Positions 1-9,122 of a stretch of DNA of 9,122 nucleotides are shown here, one piece after another. A program made the position numbers and the translations under genes. Source of the stretch: Promethearchaeota archaeon (GTDB lineage: Archaea > Asgardarchaeota > Lokiarchaeia > Sigynarchaeales > MK-D1); NCBI GenBank assembly GCA_016839865.1, contig JAEOTN010000103.1, forward strand, positions 1 through 9,122, read 5' to 3'. The stretch's first letter is position 1. Each line of letters starts with the position of its first letter. Below the pieces are notes generated by a model. That model did no database searches. It saw nothing but the letters and a program-made list of their open reading frames with translations, and had not been told where the DNA came from.

Positions 1-866
1 AAGAGGGTGATATAATCCGATTGGATTTAATAATAGAGAATAACAGCAGTATACCACTCTCAAATCTTAACTGTACGATACCATCAAATGTACAAGGATT
101 AGAAAGGCTAGATAATTATACAGCACAATTCACTAACATACTTCCGAATGAAACCAAAATGTTTTCTACGGAGTTAAATAAGACGTATTGGGATTCCATT
201 ATATTTCCTGGTGTAGATTATTTTAACTCTAGTCAAATATATTCAATTCAGATTGCCCGGAAATGCCCTTTAATTTTGGGATATAAGGAATTTGAAATCC
301 ATAAATCCTTTTCAGATTATGATGGAATTTATAATTCTATTGTCACCGTTCAAATCAATATCACTAATACAGGCAATTTAGATGTTTACGATCTAACTGT
401 TGTTGATTTTGCAGGATATCCTAAAGAAGGATTCTCACTCATTAATGGAACCCCGGATAGATTCATCACATCCTTAACACCAAATGAGACATTCATTTAT
501 TCTTATACATTGAAATTCACTAAACAAGGATCTTATGAAATCACCCCTGCGTCACTCAATTATGAGTACATTACACAACAGACCGAGTACAGTAATGCTT
601 TTATTGTAAAAGTACGAAATTATTGGTTTGTAAATGCTCTTTATGTTATAATTCCAAGTATTATTGGAGGAGTAGCTACTGGGTTAATTTACTGGTCCAA
701 AAAAAGGTATGATTTAGAAGCCGCAGAATTTTCGAGAAGAGAAGAGTTAATGTTTGGTCAAGATCTTCGTTCTGTATCATGGAATAAACGTACTCTTCAA
801 GAAAATCTATATGAACTTAGCCATAATGACAATGGAAATCAAACTAAGGAGGATCGAAATAGTTGA
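1..866 (+). CDS. Partial membrane-anchored surface protein with CARDB/DUF11-like domains (3' end)
   Basis: The reading frame is open from the left edge (first full codon at 3-5), so the N-terminus and any signal peptide lie outside the window. The in-frame TTG at 21 sits inside a beta strand and has no Shine-Dalgarno sequence, so it is not the start. What remains is about 287 residues. A first beta-sandwich-like segment is followed, at about 336-617, by a second with the pattern of CARDB/DUF11 repeats: an INITNTGNLDVYDLTVVD stretch, then a Leu-Thr-Pro-Asn-Glu turn and an aromatic strand. One hydrophobic helix (about 627-692) ends in Ser-Lys-Lys-Arg, then comes a cytosolic tail of about 55 residues rich in charged residues, with an RREELMFG stretch. 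Glycosylation sequons are frequent before the helix. The topology is therefore outside-facing with a C-terminal anchor. The stop overlaps the next gene's start, implying co-translation. Function is unknown; binding or scaffolding beside the permease is inference. Confidence 0.85.
   Translation, partial: EGDIIRLDLIIENNSSIPLSNLNCTIPSNVQGLERLDNYTAQFTNILPNETKMFSTELNKTYWDSIIFPGVDYFNSSQIYSIQIARKCPLILGYKEFEIHKSFSDYDGIYNSIVTVQINITNTGNLDVYDLTVVDFAGYPKEGFSLINGTPDRFITSLTPNETFIYSYTLKFTKQGSYEITPASLNYEYITQQTEYSNAFIVKVRNYWFVNALYVIIPSIIGGVATGLIYWSKKRYDLEAAEFSRREELMFGQDLRSVSWNKRTLQENLYELSHNDNGNQTKEDRNS
846..853 (+). promoter_or_regulatory. Shine-Dalgarno sequence fixing the TTG start at 863
   Basis: AAGGAGGA lies inside the 3' end of the preceding gene, about 9 bases before TTG 863. 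It is a near-perfect match to the anti-Shine-Dalgarno end of 16S rRNA. It favours the TTG over the in-frame ATG at 896, which would delete the basic n-region of the signal peptide. Confidence 0.85.
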
Positions 867-3800
867 AAACTAGGAGAAAAAATCGACAGTTTTTGATGAT
901 TCTGACCTTCAGTATTTTATTGATTACAAGTGTCATAAATACAAAATTAAATGATAATGCAATATTGGGTGACAATAGAATAGAAGACAATCCGTCCTCC
1001 CAAATGAATTACATCAAGGACCAATTACATCTAGATCCTTATGTATGGGACACATTGGGATATACGGGTAATTCTAATGCATCTATCGCCATTATCGGTT
1101 CGGGAATTGACTATACTCATTCCAAATTTGGTTTGGATTCATATGGAGATAAAGATTTCTCCAAAAAGATTATTGGATGGAAGGATTACGTAAATGTAAC
1201 GAATAGCGATCCAATCGATCCTAACGGATTAAGTACATTTACCGCAGCTAGCGCGTACGGACAAAACGATTCCGATTCGAAAGTTCCATTAGATAGTGAG
1301 AATCGTACCACTATAACTCTTGGAAATAAATTCCTGCAAACAGAATTATTTCCTTCGAATCCGGGACCTGGATGGTTCAAGATCAAATTGGGATCTTTCT
1401 TCATAGATCAAGATAATGCAAATATCACTTTAAATGGAACATACACTGAATACAACGCAAATTTCATTCAAAATGCCAGTTTCCAGATACTGACAGATAG
1501 TACCATGTTAAACGAAACATCTGAAGACGCACATGGGTTATACAGGCAATTAACATATACAACTGGCTCTCAACCTGCAATTTATGACTTTTATTTTAGT
1601 TATTCTCTAGACTTTTCCAAACCTGTAAATTTCTCAGTTAATGCTATGATAAAAATACCTCTTGAAAGCAATTTTGACTATTCAGGAATTGCTCCCGACA
1701 CTAAAATCATTGGGTTGAGGGTATTAGATAAAAATTTGGAAGGCAATGTTTCTTCACTTGTCTCTGCTTTAAATTGGACGAAAGATAACCGAGATGATTA
1801 CCATATTGTGGGAGTTCAAATTGATTTAGGTCAATACAACTGGGATGTACCAACCATAGATTTATCAGAAGCTATCGAAAGTGTAATTGAGAGTGGTATT
1901 ATGGTATTTATACCTTCAGGTGATAATCTCCAAATATCAGATTCACTCAATCCATTAGTAGTTAATGAATTACCAATAGTCGTGGGCTCTGTAAGTGATA
2001 TTGGGAAATTGACCTATTATACATCCCTTGGACAAGAATTATCGTCAAATCATACGAAAATTGATATTTTAGCTCCCGGAGGAAGTTATCTTGCCGGACA
2101 TCGAACAATCATTGCAGCAGATACAAATGAGAATGATGCGACTGCTTATTTAAACGATCAAAGTGTAAATGATTCAACTTCTTTGGTAAGTTCATCAATC
2201 AGTACAGGATTTGTGGCGGCGTCGTATAATCTCTTAATTGAGGCTATTGGGGGATACTCAGTATGGGAAACTATTCGAACGGCTGATCTAACATTAGCTT
2301 TGAAATCGCGATTACTTATGACAGCAAGTGAAGTGAACCAAGTAAGAGAAGACAATCCCGAAACAACTATTATTGACGAAAGTGAGTCCACATTCTCACC
2401 GATTTTAGATCGAGGAGGTAAGGATACAAGAGAAGGTTTTGGATTACTTAACATCCCTGCAGCATTGGAAAGTTTGTTATTTGAGATTAGCGATAATAGT
2501 CAAATAACCAATAGTCTAGTTTCGGTTCCTGCTAATAGCACAGGGGTCCACAGCTTTGCTCGAAGAATTCATTTGACTCAAAATGAATACTATAAATTCA
2601 ATCTCACTTTTACAAATACTTCAGATCTTGATTTCTTCATATATGAGAATATATCTGATACTTCAGGAGATCCCACTATAATTCAAGAATCTACATCGAG
2701 TGGAAATACTAATGAATCGTTAGTTTTTGGATTAGAACAAGAATCTGGAGAGTACGTTGTCGTAGTAAAAGCAGTTAGTGGAGAATTGACGAATTTCACA
2801 TTGAATGTAACTCATATGATTAATGTGAACGTACCAACACTCACAGATCACACGGTTAATGGGATACAAGGATTCAATGATACATTGGACACCTTCGAAT
2901 TCATTATAAATTACACAGATTTGGATGATCTCCCTCCAATCACTATGGATCTTAATATAACAGGAATTCCATATTTGATACCATTTAGCCAAGTAACTTC
3001 AGATACAAATTACACTGATGGTTGCTTGTATTCATCTCAGTATCGTTTTTACGAGATAGGAGTATATGAATATCACATTATCGCATGGGATGGAGTGTCA
3101 TTAGTTCGTTCTCCTGGAATTTCCAATTACTCTTTGGAAGTTGTAACCGTTCAAAATGCAATTTATAATAATTATACTTGGGAGTTTCCAACAATTGATA
3201 ATTGGAATATGGATGGTGGATGGAACAATATTTCCCAAATAAATTCGATTGATACTCGTGCATTAAATACTACAACTTGGAATGCATTGTATTTCGGAGA
3301 TGATAGTTCCATCTCATTAGGAGAATATTCATATGAATCACTATCAGAGCTCAGTATTTCCTCGGCTTATTCCCCACAAATCTGGATAAATGGAAGTTCA
3401 ACTCCAGTTTTACAAGTCGGAACTCGTATTAGTATCAACCAAGGAGATTATTTCATGATAAATGCACGTTCAAATAGAACGGGATCATGGGAGACCCTTG
3501 ACTCGTTCACCAATCTCGAAAGCGAATGGATAATGCTTGAGTACGATTTACATGGATTCGCAAATTCCTACGTTCAAATCCAATTCATGGTAATTTTGGA
3601 TTTATTTAATGATATGGAGCAAAATAAAGGCGTTATACTGGCTGAGTTTAATCTACTGCAGCAACCTATAATAAATCTTCACTCAACCAGAATCTTCAAT
3701 TCGACAGTCACACCAAGTTTTGGTCCAAAATATCAAGAATTTCAGTATTCGGCAATAGTAGGCGACCAAGATGGTGTTACTCCTGATCTCGTATATTTAG

Positions 3801-5266
3801 AAATCGACAACATAAATTATACCATGTTTAATATATTAGGAGTTTTCGATGGTTCATTTGTTCTTGATAACGAAACTCTTCAATCGGGAGGAATTACATA
3901 TGCTTATGATATATTCCTAGCGACTGTCAGTAATTCCAGTTTTCGGATTCATGTAAGGGAAAATGGGGACTTTATATCCACAGAATTCTTCAATGGTCCC
4001 GAAATTAGCTCCCAAATCAATGCAACCTTTCCATATTATGGAATCCCAAGTAACATGAGTGTGTATGGTAATCCTCAACCCCAACCCAGCACAATTTGGG
4101 TGAGTTCCAGTAATTCATTCCACTATATTTCTCGCGACGCGGTATGGTATTCAGGAGAAAATTATTACATGGGATATGGGGAAAATTGGGATGTGTACAT
4201 GGTAACATCATTAATTCATATACCACCATCTAATGAGGAAAATGACAGAGTATTTTTGTGGTTTGAACATCAATTAATATTCGATTCACCAATTCCTACA
4301 TTATTTGACGATTATGCTCAGATTATGATCTCTTCTGATTTGGGAGATCATTGGTATGATCTAGATATTTATGAAGAAAATATTGATGGGTACCAATTAC
4401 AAAAGATTGATTTATGGAACTATAAAGGGATGGATGTGCTTATCCGATTTGAGTTCCATTCAGATGATACCGGTTTTCTACCAACATCTGAAACAGGTTG
4501 GTATCTACGGAACATCATGGTAAATGTTGATGAATCTATCGACAATGAACCCCCTACAATACTATTCACTAATATCATTCCTAACATGGAAGTCAATGAA
4601 ACTTTCACAATTGAAATAACCATTTTAGATCCATCCGGTGTTGATGATGAACTAGTTATTCTCTATATAAACACAGTTAGCATAGATGATGCGATTTCAG
4701 AAAATGGAGTGATTAGATATGAACTTGATACAACCCGTTTCCGAAATGGAAATACAACTGTTTCGGTCATAGCGTATGATCTAATGGGAAATCAACATAT
4801 CGAAAGTACTTATATCTCAATTCAAAATGAACGCAATCAATTCACTTGGGTTTATGTTATTGTTGGAGTAGCTGTGGTGCTAATTGCAGGGATACTCTTT
4901 TTTTATTTCCAGCTGTTAAAACCAGCTAAAAGAAAACGTGAATTAGCCAAAGAAATGCTAACAGAAGAGGATAAACAGAAATTGCTTGAAAAACAAAGAG
5001 CACGCGAGTTAGAGGAATTACGAATCCGAGAGGAGGCTGAACTTGCCACATCTGAATCTGAAGCATTGAAACCTTATACTTATAAATGTAAACGCTGTTC
5101 AAAACAATTCCAAAATAAGGAGTACATATGGTCTATGATGTGTCCTGATTGTAATACTGATACTTTGGATTTAGAGTATCAATGTAAAATATGTGGTAAA
5201 TTTTATTACTATGACCTTCCCGGAGAACATTTCTGTAAAGATTGTGATATTAAATTGCTAAAATAA
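863..5266 (+). CDS. Pseudo-subtilisin (S8-fold) single-pass receptor-like protein with cytosolic zinc ribbons
   Basis: A 1467-residue protein starting at TTG. Residues 1-27 are a signal peptide (KTRRK n-region, hydrophobic core). Residues about 55-540 follow the S8 fold: a WDTLGYTG lead-in, the Asp-region strand (73-86), the His region (119-133), IAPDTKIIGLRVLD (276-289), KIDILAPGG (399-407) and a GGKDTREGFGLLN exit (518-530). The catalytic Asp is Gly79, the His is Leu123 and the oxyanion Asn is Asp354; only Ser445 remains, so hydrolysis is not expected. There is no room for an I9 propeptide. Next come a PPC-like domain (about 553-648), Ig-like (650-760), jelly-roll/MAM-like (770-935), Ig-like (940-1045), jelly-roll-like (1050-1223) and Ig-like (1229-1323) segments. 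A helix (1327-1350), a coiled coil (1355-1400) and Cys pairs 1409/1412, 1427/1430, 1441/1444 and 1458/1461 complete it. I count 38 sequons, all before the helix. Role unknown; ligand binding coupled to the adjacent permease is inference. Domain names rest on recall, not a search. Confidence 0.9.
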   Translation: MKTRRKNRQFLMILTFSILLITSVINTKLNDNAILGDNRIEDNPSSQMNYIKDQLHLDPYVWDTLGYTGNSNASIAIIGSGIDYTHSKFGLDSYGDKDFSKKIIGWKDYVNVTNSDPIDPNGLSTFTAASAYGQNDSDSKVPLDSENRTTITLGNKFLQTELFPSNPGPGWFKIKLGSFFIDQDNANITLNGTYTEYNANFIQNASFQILTDSTMLNETSEDAHGLYRQLTYTTGSQPAIYDFYFSYSLDFSKPVNFSVNAMIKIPLESNFDYSGIAPDTKIIGLRVLDKNLEGNVSSLVSALNWTKDNRDDYHIVGVQIDLGQYNWDVPTIDLSEAIESVIESGIMVFIPSGDNLQISDSLNPLVVNELPIVVGSVSDIGKLTYYTSLGQELSSNHTKIDILAPGGSYLAGHRTIIAADTNENDATAYLNDQSVNDSTSLVSSSISTGFVAASYNLLIEAIGGYSVWETIRTADLTLALKSRLLMTASEVNQVREDNPETTIIDESESTFSPILDRGGKDTREGFGLLNIPAALESLLFEISDNSQITNSLVSVPANSTGVHSFARRIHLTQNEYYKFNLTFTNTSDLDFFIYENISDTSGDPTIIQESTSSGNTNESLVFGLEQESGEYVVVVKAVSGELTNFTLNVTHMINVNVPTLTDHTVNGIQGFNDTLDTFEFIINYTDLDDLPPITMDLNITGIPYLIPFSQVTSDTNYTDGCLYSSQYRFYEIGVYEYHIIAWDGVSLVRSPGISNYSLEVVTVQNAIYNNYTWEFPTIDNWNMDGGWNNISQINSIDTRALNTTTWNALYFGDDSSISLGEYSYESLSELSISSAYSPQIWINGSSTPVLQVGTRISINQGDYFMINARSNRTGSWETLDSFTNLESEWIMLEYDLHGFANSYVQIQFMVILDLFNDMEQNKGVILAEFNLLQQPIINLHSTRIFNSTVTPSFGPKYQEFQYSAIVGDQDGVTPDLVYLEIDNINYTMFNILGVFDGSFVLDNETLQSGGITYAYDIFLATVSNSSFRIHVRENGDFISTEFFNGPEISSQINATFPYYGIPSNMSVYGNPQPQPSTIWVSSSNSFHYISRDAVWYSGENYYMGYGENWDVYMVTSLIHIPPSNEENDRVFLWFEHQLIFDSPIPTLFDDYAQIMISSDLGDHWYDLDIYEENIDGYQLQKIDLWNYKGMDVLIRFEFHSDDTGFLPTSETGWYLRNIMVNVDESIDNEPPTILFTNIIPNMEVNETFTIEITILDPSGVDDELVILYINTVSIDDAISENGVIRYELDTTRFRNGNTTVSVIAYDLMGNQHIESTYISIQNERNQFTWVYVIVGVAVVLIAGILFFYFQLLKPAKRKRELAKEMLTEEDKQKLLEKQRARELEELRIREEAELATSESEALKPYTYKCKRCSKQFQNKEYIWSMMCPDCNTDTLDLEYQCKICGKFYYYDLPGEHFCKDCDIKLLK

Positions 5267-5271
5267 AGGAG
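5267..5271 (+). promoter_or_regulatory. Shine-Dalgarno sequence of the permease gene
   Basis: AGGAG sits in the 12-base gap between the stop at 5264-5266 and ATG 5279, with a 7-base spacer. The gap leaves no space for an independent promoter, so the permease is probably translated from the same message as the gene before it. Confidence 0.85.
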
Positions 5272-5278
5272 AAAAACT

Positions 5279-8188
5279 ATGAATACATTTCAATTTGCTT
5301 GGAGAGACTTTAAAAAACAGAAACTAAAAAGCATTTTCGCAGTTTTAGGTGTAATGATAGCAATTTTTCTCCTCACAGCAATCGGTATGTTAATAGATTC
5401 TCTGTCGTATAGTTTTCTGGATGTTGCAACAGCCCAATCTGGAAGTTCGGATCTAACAATAACCAAATCCGTTTCTCCAGATTTATCGTTCGATCCTTAT
5501 ATGAACCATACCTTTATTGAAACTGCAGCAAATATTGATGAGATTGATCATTATTATCCCCGAATTCTGAATTTTATTGATATGGAAACCCAACAAACTA
5601 TTGGAGACCCCAACCGTGTCATGTTTTATGGGTTAAATATCACGCTCGAACAAAATTCAGGTAAAATGGGTGATCTGGTATTATGTGATCCTATTACCTT
5701 AGCAGAAACCGAAGAAATTTATGAAGGACCCATACCCTCTGGTCGTGTCATCATATTAAAGAACACTGCAAAGATTCACAGTCTCTCTGTTGGGGATTGG
5801 ATGGTTCTTACATATACTCAATACAGCGTTAACGTAACAATAGATGCTATCTGTGTACAGAAACTTCGTTTCAACGCAGCAGAATCAAATTTAGTGATTA
5901 TGGACCTAGGGCATGCACAATCATTTTTAGATAAACCTAGAGAAGCAAACTACGTTATGGCAACATTTGCCAATCCAGGCAGAGTATATGATACTAGGAA
6001 TCTTGATGCGACTACTACTCGAATTCGAAATATTGGTGAAGACATTCAACGGGCATTAGGATTTGAATATATAATTTCCGCACCAAAATTAGCTGAAGTT
6101 GAAAATTCTGAATTCATGACGACATTGATGAATACAATGCTCGTTTTTGTGACGATAATGGCATTGTTAATTAGCGGAATTTTGATCAACTCAATCCTTA
6201 CCACTTCTATTGAAGAGAGGATCAGAGAATTTGGCATAATGCGTGTAGTTGGGGCTAAAAAAAGGGAAAACATGCAAATTGTCTTATATCAAGGGCTAAT
6301 TATTGCATTATTTGGAACGGGAGCAGGACTTGCAATAGGAATCGGTTCAGTTCCATTCTGGCTCTGGCTAATCTCTTCTCTCACAGAAATTTGGTCAAAA
6401 GGAATCCCAATGATTTGGAATCCACAAACAATTATTCAAAGTGCAGTAATTGGAGTGGCTGTCACTGTTGGAATTTCGTTGCTGCCAGCTATAAAAGCAG
6501 GAAGGATCCAAATTACGAACGCCGTTGATCCCTATCGTCGAGATCAAGAGCAACAGTACAAAATCAAAAAAGAAGGTTCTTCAAATATCAAAATAATGGT
6601 ATTGGGAATTGCCATTAGCACAGCAGGCCTATTAGTCTTTATATTTCTCCCTAGAATTATGCTTACAGAAGATCTGATGATTGTTATATCTATTTTCTTG
6701 ACATTGTTATTGGCAATTTTGATTGGAATGGTGTTTGCCCTTGTCGGTATAGTCCCAGCTTTTGAATGGTTGGTCGCTAGAATATTTAAACCGTTTATTC
6801 GAAAGGTTTTTCCCATAGTTCAATTAGGATTAAAACGCAATCGCAGGAGAAATCAAGGCAATATCCTATTATTCTCCTTAAGCTTTTCATTCATATTCTT
6901 TTTCAGCACGTTTATTGCTATGCGTGCTCAAATGACTACAAATAGCTTGCAAAATACATACGGGTCGGATTTAGTTCTTATCAATCAAGGAGCGGAATCT
7001 ACAGGAGATTATGTCGATTTTAATCTTTATGATCAAGTTTCTCAAACCATCGGTGTGAAAAATACTGCTCCTCTTATGTATAATACTATTGATCTCACCG
7101 AGATTTTATCAGTCCTAACAAAAGCATTGGAAGAAGGCATAGATCCCGAAGCAATTGGTGAGGCTTTTCAAAGAATTTTCACTATTAACAAAATTGAGAC
7201 CTATATCGGCTCTATCACGTTTAATAAATACGTCGATTGCGGTTTGTTCGGAGTAGATCAAGACTATGTTGACATTTCTAATAGAGAATTCTTTAGTTGG
7301 GATAAAAGTTCAGGTTCCGACACAAGTAGCTTTGAAGATCTTTTCGATTCTTCACGAAATGATACAATAATAATCTCAAAAAATATTGCTGATTACATAG
7401 GGGTCACAGAAATTGGAGACCAAGTCAGGATGGTCTTCGCCGAGGAAGGAGAGGAATCTTGGGATGGGACTGCCAGAACAATGACCGTTGTAGGTATCTC
7501 TGCAGGAATGCCGGGTATATGGAATTTCGGTAGTTCATCAGCGGGTGTGTGGGGTGCAGGAGTTATGATGTCAATAGAAAATTATGTCAGCTACATCTAT
7601 CCTGGTGAACCATTTAATCAAGCTACTCCTATAGATAAAATTCTCTTAAATTTAGAGGATACATCCGCAGAGAGTATCAATGATGCCAAAACCCTCATAA
7701 CTGACCTTTATGGAACAAACTATGAGATATTAGTTGATGATAACGTATCAAAGATTAACCTGTTCACCCAAAATGATGAAGTTATTGATATCATTATGCA
7801 GGTATTGTTGATTCTAACCATCATAATCGCCTTATTCGGATTGATATCCACCATGTATTCTTCTCTGTTAGAACGAATGTTCGAAGTAGGATTACTTAGA
7901 GCAATGGGACTACATAAAAATGATGTAAGGAAGGTTTTCATATTTGAAAGTCTGACTATGATGTTATCTTCAGGTACGATGGGCACAGGAATCGGAACGT
8001 TTATTGCGTATCAAATGATTGCAAATGTTGCGATTTTGATGGAAACTCCAGTAATATTTGCTTTTTCATTGGGTGCCTTTTTTAGGACGTATTTAATCTC
8101 AATCGGAGTCTGTATCATAGGAGTTTTACTGATAACCCGGAAAGTTTCGCAGTGGAGTATCATGGAAATATTTCGAAAGACGTTTTAA
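5279..8188 (+). CDS. ABC3-type permease of the FtsX/MacB/LolC superfamily, 10 membrane helices
   Basis: A 969-residue protein with two FtsX-type halves. Helix 1 (18-42) is followed by a MacB-PCD-like ectodomain (about 43-280, with an AKIHSLSVGD motif), then helices 2-4 near 284-308, 335-365 and 386-408. Helices 5-6 (437-459, 466-490) form a linker. The second half has helix 7 (528-548), an ectodomain (about 549-837, with an ADYIGVTEIGD motif) and helices 8-10 (838-860, 888-912, 930-953). After helices 2 and 8 comes the same family motif: EERIREFGIMRVVGAKK (312-328) and LERMFEVGLLRAMGLHK (864-880), the short cytosolic region expected to contact the ATPase. Both termini are predicted cytosolic. 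Known relatives use ATP-driven bending to move lipoproteins or drugs across the envelope, or to switch cell-wall enzymes on. Substrate here is unknown. No Walker-motif protein is in the window. Its stop overlaps the convergent gene's stop. Confidence 0.93.
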   Translation: MNTFQFAWRDFKKQKLKSIFAVLGVMIAIFLLTAIGMLIDSLSYSFLDVATAQSGSSDLTITKSVSPDLSFDPYMNHTFIETAANIDEIDHYYPRILNFIDMETQQTIGDPNRVMFYGLNITLEQNSGKMGDLVLCDPITLAETEEIYEGPIPSGRVIILKNTAKIHSLSVGDWMVLTYTQYSVNVTIDAICVQKLRFNAAESNLVIMDLGHAQSFLDKPREANYVMATFANPGRVYDTRNLDATTTRIRNIGEDIQRALGFEYIISAPKLAEVENSEFMTTLMNTMLVFVTIMALLISGILINSILTTSIEERIREFGIMRVVGAKKRENMQIVLYQGLIIALFGTGAGLAIGIGSVPFWLWLISSLTEIWSKGIPMIWNPQTIIQSAVIGVAVTVGISLLPAIKAGRIQITNAVDPYRRDQEQQYKIKKEGSSNIKIMVLGIAISTAGLLVFIFLPRIMLTEDLMIVISIFLTLLLAILIGMVFALVGIVPAFEWLVARIFKPFIRKVFPIVQLGLKRNRRRNQGNILLFSLSFSFIFFFSTFIAMRAQMTTNSLQNTYGSDLVLINQGAESTGDYVDFNLYDQVSQTIGVKNTAPLMYNTIDLTEILSVLTKALEEGIDPEAIGEAFQRIFTINKIETYIGSITFNKYVDCGLFGVDQDYVDISNREFFSWDKSSGSDTSSFEDLFDSSRNDTIIISKNIADYIGVTEIGDQVRMVFAEEGEESWDGTARTMTVVGISAGMPGIWNFGSSSAGVWGAGVMMSIENYVSYIYPGEPFNQATPIDKILLNLEDTSAESINDAKTLITDLYGTNYEILVDDNVSKINLFTQNDEVIDIIMQVLLILTIIIALFGLISTMYSSLLERMFEVGLLRAMGLHKNDVRKVFIFESLTMMLSSGTMGTGIGTFIAYQMIANVAILMETPVIFAFSLGAFFRTYLISIGVCIIGVLLITRKVSQWSIMEIFRKTF
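8185..8188. other. Shared TTAA palindrome supplying both convergent stop codons
   Basis: TAA at 8186-8188 ends the plus-strand permease and the reverse-strand TAA at 8187-8185 ends the surface-protein gene. The two genes therefore meet tail to tail with a 4-base overlap and no intergenic space. Confidence 0.95.
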
Positions 8189-9122
8189 GACGAGATTTCA
8201 TCATCTTTTTTCTTTCTTTTATACTGTAGCAATATTACAGAACTGATTAGACCAAGTATAATATATATGTTATATCCAGGAATCTTTCTTTGTGGAGGAT
8301 CAGGTAAATCAACTACAACTATTCCAGGTCTGGATATGACTGATTCGGTATTTTTCATAATTGTGGTCATAACATAGAAATATGTTCCTTCCTCTAAACC
8401 AAGTTCCGTGAAATTTGTTGAGGTTAAAGATTGATAGGGAGTACGGTTGGTAATATCAAGAATTGGGTGGATATCCTTGTATATGTTATATGATTGGGCT
8501 CCTTTCACTTCATCCCATTCGATCAAAAAAGATCCATTTGAACTTGGATTAGGTACTATTGGTTTGATGTTAGGTGGCTGAGGAAGATGATATGAATAAA
8601 TTTTAAGAAAGAGATGATAGTAATACTCCCCGTAATATGTTCCACAAATAGAAACGCCACTATTTACTCCGAAAATTCCAAGACCATAATCATTACGTTC
8701 CTCATAACCCCAAGTTAGTATATCAAGTCTTATTCCAGAATATGTATATTTTAGGTAAAGAACATCGGTAAATTCTCCATTTTCCTCCGTTTCGTACCCA
8801 CAAATATATGCATAATACTCGTTTGCCCAAATTGAATACCCAATATCATTTCTATCCCCTCCATAGCTTCTTGTCCATTCTCGGGTACCATTAGATGCAT
8901 ATTTCATAATGAGAACGTCAGTAACATCATTCTCAGCGTCCCATCTACTACCACATGTGTATAAACTAGTATTATAACCAAAAATTGAAGTACTGTATTC
9001 AACATTCACTGTCCCCCATGTCTTATTCCAGATCTGGTTTCCCTCTGAATCCCATTTGACAATAACAGAATCATTAAGTCCTGAACTGTAACTAGAAGTA
9101 CTTCCACATGTGTAAATTTCAT
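8185..9122 (-). CDS. Partial surface protein: beta-propeller repeats, FnIII-like domain, IPGYN C-terminal sorting/anchor signal
   Basis: The frame stays open to the right edge, so the 5' part is missing. The GTG at 9009 is internal, because repeat sequence of the same kind continues upstream of it (EIYTCGSTSSY and KWDSEGNQIWNKTWG). About 311 residues are visible. From the edge to about 8580 there are 51-52-residue repeats, each with a Y-x-C-G strand, a D-(V/A)-(L/I)-x-x-K-(Y/W) strand and a W-x-x-x-(W/Y)-G turn, as in SBBP-type beta-propellers. About 8577-8308 is a fibronectin-III-like domain (IEWDEVKGAQSYNIYKD). The end (8283-8188) is IPGYN, a hydrophobic helix and YKRKKKDDEISS, a tripartite layout like archaeal PGF-CTERM signals and, from memory, Loki-CTERM. 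It is probably a cell-surface adhesion or binding protein anchored at its C-terminus. It is on the opposite strand and need not be linked to the operon. Substrate unknown. Confidence 0.88.
   Translation of the reverse strand, partial: EIYTCGSTSSYSSGLNDSVIVKWDSEGNQIWNKTWGTVNVEYSTSIFGYNTSLYTCGSRWDAENDVTDVLIMKYASNGTREWTRSYGGDRNDIGYSIWANEYYAYICGYETEENGEFTDVLYLKYTYSGIRLDILTWGYEERNDYGLGIFGVNSGVSICGTYYGEYYYHLFLKIYSYHLPQPPNIKPIVPNPSSNGSFLIEWDEVKGAQSYNIYKDIHPILDITNRTPYQSLTSTNFTELGLEEGTYFYVMTTIMKNTESVISRPGIVVVDLPDPPQRKIPGYNIYIILGLISSVILLQYKRKKKDDEISS
8206..8220 (+). terminator. Possible T-rich transcription terminator for the three-gene operon
   Basis: A run of T6-C-T3-C-T4 begins 18 bases after the permease stop. 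Archaeal RNA polymerase often terminates at T-rich tracts in the non-template strand without a hairpin, so this could end the plus-strand message. The same bases encode the lysine/arginine tail of the opposite gene, so the tract may exist only for coding reasons. I see no hairpin and no comparable T-run for the minus-strand message just beyond its stop. Confidence 0.4.
8580..9122 (-). repeat. Tandem 51-52-residue beta-propeller-type repeats inside the surface-protein gene
   Basis: The cysteine codons of successive Y-x-C-G motifs lie at about 9108, 8955, 8802 and 8646 (first base, reverse strand), giving steps of 153, 153 and 156 bases. The 11-mer CCACATGTGTA (plus strand) occurs at 9104-9114 and again at 8951-8961, exactly 153 bases apart. 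The array continues past the right edge. At the protein level the last unit is shorter and more divergent. Confidence 0.8.

Follow-up and report, generated by a model that had tools for sequence, protein, structure and literature searches.

A conserved five-gene operon of Lokiarchaea, predicted to encode a type VII ABC surface system with an S8-family protein that lost its catalytic residues in one clade

What could a degenerate protease do beside an ATP-binding cassette (ABC) permease in the envelope of an Asgard archaeon? The question is raised by a 9,122-nt stretch of DNA from a Promethearchaeota archaeon (assembly GCA_016839865.1, contig JAEOTN010000103.1; hereafter the window), in which three open reading frames (ORFs) follow one another on the + strand. 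The first (3..866), left open by the left edge, encodes the C-terminal 287 residues of a TRAPβ/DUF11-type surface protein of about 1284 residues, whose orthologue in a relative (locus L001) is full length; the second (863..5266, TTG start) encodes an S8-family pseudo-protease of 1467 residues; the third (5279..8188) encodes an FtsX-type permease of 969 residues. The first two genes overlap by 4 bases (TTGA), the S8 gene being preceded by a ribosome-binding-like AAGGAGG (846..852), and 12 bases with an AAGGAG-type site separate the S8 gene from the permease gene. The initial annotation had read this layout, with its 10-helix permease and its transmembrane (TM) helix and ribbon tail on the pseudo-protease, as a candidate undescribed envelope system, and both the ORFs and hydropathy agree with it. 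We found that these genes form the 3' end of an operon of five, which is conserved among Lokiarchaea and supports the prediction that Asgard archaea have a conserved envelope system of this kind.

A profile of the S8 family, searched against the genome collection, returned 49 loci (L001-L049), of which 47 are titled as Loki- or Heimdallarchaeal metagenome-assembled genomes (MAGs); the exceptions are L033, a 'bacterium', and L049, a proteobacterium, organism labels being MAG titles throughout. A few homologous proteins carry the label Odin- or Heimdallarchaeota. Five of the loci (L045-L049) were rejected as operon members, as they hold other S8 proteins without the neighbours. In the 44 others and in the window, the gene order is ATPase, permease 1 (FtsX1), the ~1300-residue TRAP-like protein, S8 protein and permease 2 (FtsX2), with all five genes in 32 of 45 and the absent genes of the other 13 lying beyond the contig or locus end. 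Median intergenic gaps are 48, 16, 0 and 30 bases (33, 34, 41 and 41 pairs), the ATPase-FtsX1 pair is recognised by similarity in 33 loci, and in each of the 41 loci with scores for both, the S8 gene stands next to the TRAP-like gene. Further loci centred on the TRAP-like gene, many of them from the same species as L001-L044, carry S8 on one side in 26/26 and FtsX1 opposite in 25/26 (L072 meets a contig end). Chance is excluded because the same order recurs in dozens of genomes, and the flanking genes vary between clades (eight loci viewed). The adjacency that the initial annotation proposed to look for across Asgard genomes is therefore kept, the ABC ATPase expected beyond the left edge exists in relatives as the first gene of the operon, and the S8 gene, which might have been found alone, never stood without its neighbours wherever the contig reached them (44 family loci).

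Taken alone, the window's S8 protein is matched by a mycosin model only (4.5e-5), and PF00082 gave no match to it at E<=1. PF00082 is present on homologues 68-70% identical to it and reaches 6e-34 in L005; through these homologues the protein is predicted to belong to the peptidase S8 fold family (subtilase domain). The closest solved relatives of the family are chains 3afg and 9ues, presumably Thermococcus subtilisin-like proteases; unlike the operon protein they are short (539 and 427 residues), and no TM helix, double zinc ribbon or ABC partner was evident for them in the search results. Hydropathy gives the S8 protein one signal-like segment and one C-terminal TM helix (residues 1329-1347; 4847..4903). 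Because positive charge lies on the C-terminal side of this helix, the tail that follows, a double zinc ribbon with eight cysteines (5087..5245), is predicted to be cytosolic. Every one of the 49 family sequences that extend over the tail keeps all eight cysteines, repeats (P0001, P0003, P0008) and non-family rows being left out of the count.

Alignment columns place Gly79 (1097..1099) at the catalytic Asp, Leu123 (1229..1231) at the catalytic His and Asp354 (1922..1924) at the oxyanion Asn, with the catalytic Ser kept as Ser445 (2195..2197), so that the window protein does not have the full set of residues of an active peptidase. This state is rare in the family. Asp and His are both intact in 39 of the 42 operon loci covering them (the exceptions are L001-L003), the oxyanion Asn in 41/44 and Ser in 44/44, and seven further loci (L080-L086, one probably a repeat of L011) have intact catalytic columns. 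The "dead protease" of the initial annotation is thus accurate for three residues of the window protein; it holds neither for the serine nor for most of the family. The same pattern (Asp→Gly, His→Leu or Gln, Asn→Asp, Ser kept) is common to seven distinct sequences on separate contigs (the window, L001, L002, L003, P0002, P0004 and P0005), which rules out an assembly error. In a quick permease-2 tree, with long branches flagged, the four dead members that have a permease-2 row form one group with a Shimodaira-Hasegawa-like approximate likelihood ratio (SH-aLRT) support of 100, and their sister rows L080, L081 and L085 are catalytically intact. These sequences indicate that the catalytic residues were lost once, in the window's clade.

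The dead members also differ ahead of the Asp column, where they have 75-88 residues (67 in P0001, in which the window protein is called shorter). Live family members have 134-193 there, a range that leaves out L020 and L033, without the region, and the non-family L045-L049 and P0012-P0015. L024 (69) and L013 (78), two live members that seem as short, carry the missing region in frame further upstream. By eye, the region resembles a subtilase propeptide, with no Pfam match, and it is absent from all dead members. A second full-length S8 copy that might compensate in the same genome was considered and rejected, since G001, G002, G003 and G089 have one full-length match each; two additional matches in G003 cover the first half of the profile only.

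Has the dead gene begun to decay? In two dead pairs whose FtsX2 proteins are 82.7 and 83.8% identical, S8 identity is 68.4 and 65.8%, against 68.9±3.1% in 55 live pairs at 75-85% FtsX2 identity, and the catalytic domain in three close dead pairs is 69.4-73.1% identical against 73.6±4.3% in 66 live pairs (FtsX2 75-90%). For the more distant pairs with L003, the middle of S8 is less conserved than in live pairs (38.6-41.2% against 47.4±2.3%), the TM-and-ribbon tail stands at 39.2-40.6% against 34.2±4.2%, and identity of the TRAP-like partner is unremarkable (39.3-42.4% against 41.7±2.1%). Together with the eight cysteines of the tail, these pairwise identities point to a gene kept after its catalytic residues were lost and somewhat relaxed except in the tail, and not to a decaying pseudogene.

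The permease of the window matches FtsX PF02687 over two stretches (104.4 bits, cut-off 25.5, E 5e-30). Hydropathy gives it 10 TM-like segments, with large ectodomains after TM1 (5396..6139) and TM7 (6920..7789), the second holding the best MacB_PCD stretch (residues 557-794; 27.2 bits, cut-off 27). Its nearest solved chains include YtrF, MacB, LolF and LolE. The single 10-helix permease of the initial annotation is thus right for this gene and incomplete for the operon, which holds two permeases of that type; hydropathy of permease 1, examined in two orthologues, gave 9 or 10 TM-like segments. None of the known systems compared is reached at the equivalog level: both permeases match lolCE models below cut-off (lolCE 53.1 of 362.45), permease 2 scores 10.3 bits against FtsX_Gpos (cut-off 225), and the ATPase, scanned in L001 and L005, has LolD, MacB, FtsE and YbbA-type models as its best, all below equivalog cut-offs (LolD 235 of 307.75). 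The window is too short to show the ATPase; in relatives a cognate LolD/MacB-type ATPase is present. The FtsX domain and this ATPase suggest the type VII (mechanotransmission) ABC class, mechanotransmission itself being a proposal.

The initial annotation had called the remaining partner a CARDB-like membrane protein. This holds in part: the domain passes the cut-offs of CARDB, DUF7507 or DUF11 in relatives; in the window it scores 56.8 bits with TRAP_beta PF05753 (cut-off 22.4) against 15.6 with CARDB (cut-off 22.7), and the left gene as a whole is the last fifth of a protein of ~1284 residues. The window piece is 71% identical to the 1284-residue L001 orthologue, and complete operon copies are about 1280-1340 residues long, not stand-alone single-pass proteins of ~180. 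Within the piece, the TRAPβ-like immunoglobulin (Ig) domain occupies residues 101-201 (303..605), followed by a TM helix (636..692) and a short cytosolic tail. Sequence profiles have TRAPβ as their best PDB match (2.4e-5 with the family profile, 8.5e-4 with the whole-protein profile), and so has VIA-align for a predicted structure (Z 14.4-15.4, next 11.4; this comparison bears on the model from residue ~430 onward), although Foldseek on the predicted structure ranks it only 26th and in L005 DUF11 scores above TRAP_beta (44.9 against 30.6 bits). A membrane-proximal Ig domain and a TM helix are thus shared with TRAPβ (SSR2), whose PDB chains have ~183-186 residues, unlike the module that ends a ~1300-residue protein in an ABC operon.

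We then looked at how this protein is distributed. Its profile matches in 161 of 227 Asgard genomes at E<=0.001 and, among the matches listed, in 57 at E<=1e-60, most of the weaker listed matches covering the C-terminal domain only. In a search of 5.8 billion proteins, the full-length matches among the 7994 candidates scored are all labelled Asgard or 'archaeon', or have no organism label. PF05753 has the ABC-operon protein as its best match in 10 of 12 Lokiarchaeal-block genomes (G001-G005, G089, G092, G098, G104, G111, G136, G140), with weaker matches on other ORFs, and no separate TRAPβ-like protein of ~200 residues was found in the 12, where further matches were listed and two short ones checked. 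Second PF05753 matches of ~450 residues were rejected as TRAPβ, as the three read (G001, G004, G123) look DUF58-type by eye; those of G004 and G123 stand beside a MoxR-type ATPase, also by eye. G092 has a PF05753 match of 760 residues. A two-row profile of small TRAPβ-like proteins gave no TRAPβ match in the PDB at E<=1, and it therefore does not help to place them in one family with the operon module.

How far do the permeases depend on the S8 protein? In four genomes (G158, G159, G161, G162; loci L076-L079) permease 2 comes immediately after the ~1300-residue gene, and the S8 gene is missing; the complete set of four is seen in two of these loci, the other two being truncated upstream. A search of these genomes gave no S8-family protein of full length, and G159 has an S8-profile match over positions 40-803 of 1541 within a 4595-residue ORF. 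The permeases are therefore not strictly tied to an S8 partner, which corrects the initial annotation. As this group falls outside all S8-bearing operons in the permease-2 tree rooted with permease 1 (SH-aLRT 99-100), the protease was either gained after, or lost from, a four-gene core. We also observed that many large proteins of G158, G159 and G161 match the middle of the S8-family profile (60, 85 and 93 matches; ORFs up to 4940 residues). A gene of ~425-450 residues follows the S8-less cluster in L076-L078: in L077 its product is a VWA protein whose C-terminus matches as RING-like below the cut-off, and in L076 and L078 it was read by eye only.

Among known systems, FtsEX offers a parallel for the dead S8 protein, since EnvC is a degenerate, non-catalytic hydrolase; FtsX is a 4-TM permease, unlike the 10-TM permease 2. 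The parts of PMC12646458 consulted place FtsEX in the same ABC class, controlling a hydrolase pathway outside the membrane. They describe YbbP as having 10 TM helices, with ectodomains between TM1-2 and TM7-8 where four TM helices are typical for the class, and its duplicated modules as one pseudo-dimer with two ATPases and the hydrolase on top. By this analogy each permease of the operon could be a complete transmembrane unit. YbbAP-TesA, as covered there, is also alike in its LolD/YbbA-like ATPase and in having an extracytoplasmic hydrolase encoded with the transporter. It differs in that the operon has two permeases, an extra TRAPβ-like protein and, in place of a TesA-type (SGNH) partner, a membrane-anchored S8 subtilase with a predicted cytosolic ribbon. 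LolCDE and MacB share the FtsX fold, the nearest ATPase models and a MacB-like ectodomain; the operon proteins lie far under their equivalog cut-offs and permease 2 has ten TM helices in one chain. The class, a type VII ABC transporter with an outside hydrolase partner, is thus known, and the TRAPβ module and the switch between live and dead protease set the operon apart within it. In the open-licence PMC papers searched we did not find the five-gene operon described, which agrees with the initial annotation's claim of an undescribed composition, here conserved in Asgard archaea.

Considering these results, we propose, at roughly even odds (about 50%), that the operon encodes an ATP-driven type VII ABC surface machine that presents a membrane-associated substrate to the S8 protease. 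In the putative complex, an ATPase homodimer would drive two permeases of YbbP topology, and their paired ectodomains would open and close outside the membrane. The permeases might pull a surface protein (lipid-anchored, misfolded or bearing a signal peptide) towards the membrane-tethered S8 protein or present it there, with the TRAPβ-like protein as a candidate extracellular scaffold or clamp. The double zinc ribbon may dock close to the ATPase or to some cytosolic factor. The S8 protease of most Lokiarchaea would cut the substrate. In the window's clade the S8 protein keeps its fold, nucleophile Ser, TM helix and ribbon, cleavage by the usual triad would be impossible, and the protein may act as a substrate-binding or allosteric subunit, comparable to EnvC for FtsEX. 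The operon would then be a natural experiment, an enzyme changing to a pseudoenzyme inside a fixed operon.

Several points weigh against this proposal. Complex, substrate and activity are all predicted from genes. The four outgroup loci show that the machine can exist without the protease. There are two permeases against one in YbbAP-TesA, and a single ATPase may serve two transporters. The dead S8 appears to be under partly relaxed constraint: the window and L002 (FtsX2 86.5%) share 68.8% S8 identity against 77.6±4.6% in 11 live pairs at 85-90%, and L003 pairs share 39.8-41.2% over the whole S8 protein against 46.9±1.9% (62 live pairs) and 43.5-44.7% over the catalytic domain against 53.4±1.9%. 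The kept Ser could moreover reflect residual or altered chemistry and not a purely structural role. We keep the stated odds because retention of the tail, together with the profile and Z results, still speaks for the proposal.

The alternative that survives best, tentative as it is, takes the operon for a system like LolCDE or MacB that extracts or exports lipids, lipoproteins or peptides; its true partner would be the TRAPβ-like protein, and S8 would join only occasionally, for processing or as a carrier. The S8-less core ATPase-FtsX1-TRAP-FtsX2 (L076-L079), the LolD match of the ATPase, the lolCE matches of both permeases and the partly relaxed dead S8 all fit it. However, the scores lie far under the LolC/E and LolD equivalog cut-offs, and an occasional subunit accords poorly with an S8 gene next to the TRAP-like gene in 41/41 scored and 26/26 further loci.

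An unlikely second possibility, close to the idea of the initial annotation, is a sensing module, in which the dead protease would be a ligand receptor signalling inward through its ribbon and the permeases would gate or detoxify, as in flux sensing of the BceAB type. The predicted cytosolic eight-Cys ribbon (49/49), the retention of the gene despite catalytic loss and a Gtr1/RagA-type GTPase gene that immediately precedes the ATPase gene in L001 and L080 speak for it; yet catalytically intact members have the ribbon just as well, hence it is not a receptor invention of the dead clade, and no kinase was noticed among the flanking ORFs listed, most of them without annotation.

More doubtful still is quality control at the exit of secretion, where the TRAPβ module would set the ABC-protease beside the Sec translocon and emerging surface proteins would be extracted or trimmed. 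It draws on the profile and VIA-align matches to TRAPβ and on the finding that the searched Lokiarchaeal-block genomes gave no separate TRAPβ-like protein. Ig-type domains are common, however; the L005 DUF11 score and the Foldseek rank point elsewhere, PF05753 also matches Methanosarcina acetivorans, and contact with the translocon is a prediction only. That the five genes are co-transcribed neighbours working separately is very improbable, given an order constant in dozens of genomes while flanking genes differ between clades, even if co-transcription alone is no proof of a complex.

A broader idea, which we consider speculative and improbable, joins several of these threads: the only detectable Lokiarchaeal TRAPβ-type protein would be no accessory of the translocon but the membrane-proximal end of a giant surface protein belonging to an ATP-driven ABC-protease machine, eukaryotic TRAPβ would share ancestry with a module of this archaeal machine, which would perform envelope quality control at or near the Sec exit, and the protease would have become a non-cleaving, chaperone-like subunit in the window's clade. 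Apart from this idea, TRAPβ calls in Lokiarchaea, used in arguments on eukaryote origins, may be matches to the ABC-operon protein. The part of PMC11417166 consulted names an MK-D1 TRAPβ (accession in its Table S1), which may or may not be the operon protein. For ABC3 exporters, the portion of PMC7997004 consulted reports that most of those in five Asgard proteomes matched only uncharacterised systems; one such system now gains a defined, conserved five-gene composition with an enzyme, which makes its function testable.

Finally, some minor observations concern the operon and its surroundings. Extra small ORFs lie inside it in two loci, owing to a masked stretch in permease 1 of L006 and to an in-frame stop in the ~1300-residue gene of L003; the latter, a single TAA near the 5' end (around 3476-4026 of L003, G003:C272), may be an error or real. 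The Gtr1/RagA-type small GTPase gene (~500-530 residues) lies directly upstream of the ATPase at L001:505-2097 and L080:1050-2564, and similar starts were seen by eye in L002 and L081, a group made of the dead clade and its live sisters. In L005, and by eye in L014 and L028, an RNase III gene holds this position. A viral-contig scan of the window found nothing. On the opposite strand of the window (8185..9120, -), a convergent gene encodes a surface protein that looks like a beta-propeller and has a Loki-CTERM sorting domain at its end (29.5 bits, cut-off 19.9), and among the 49 loci genes resembling it follow the operon only in L001 and L002.

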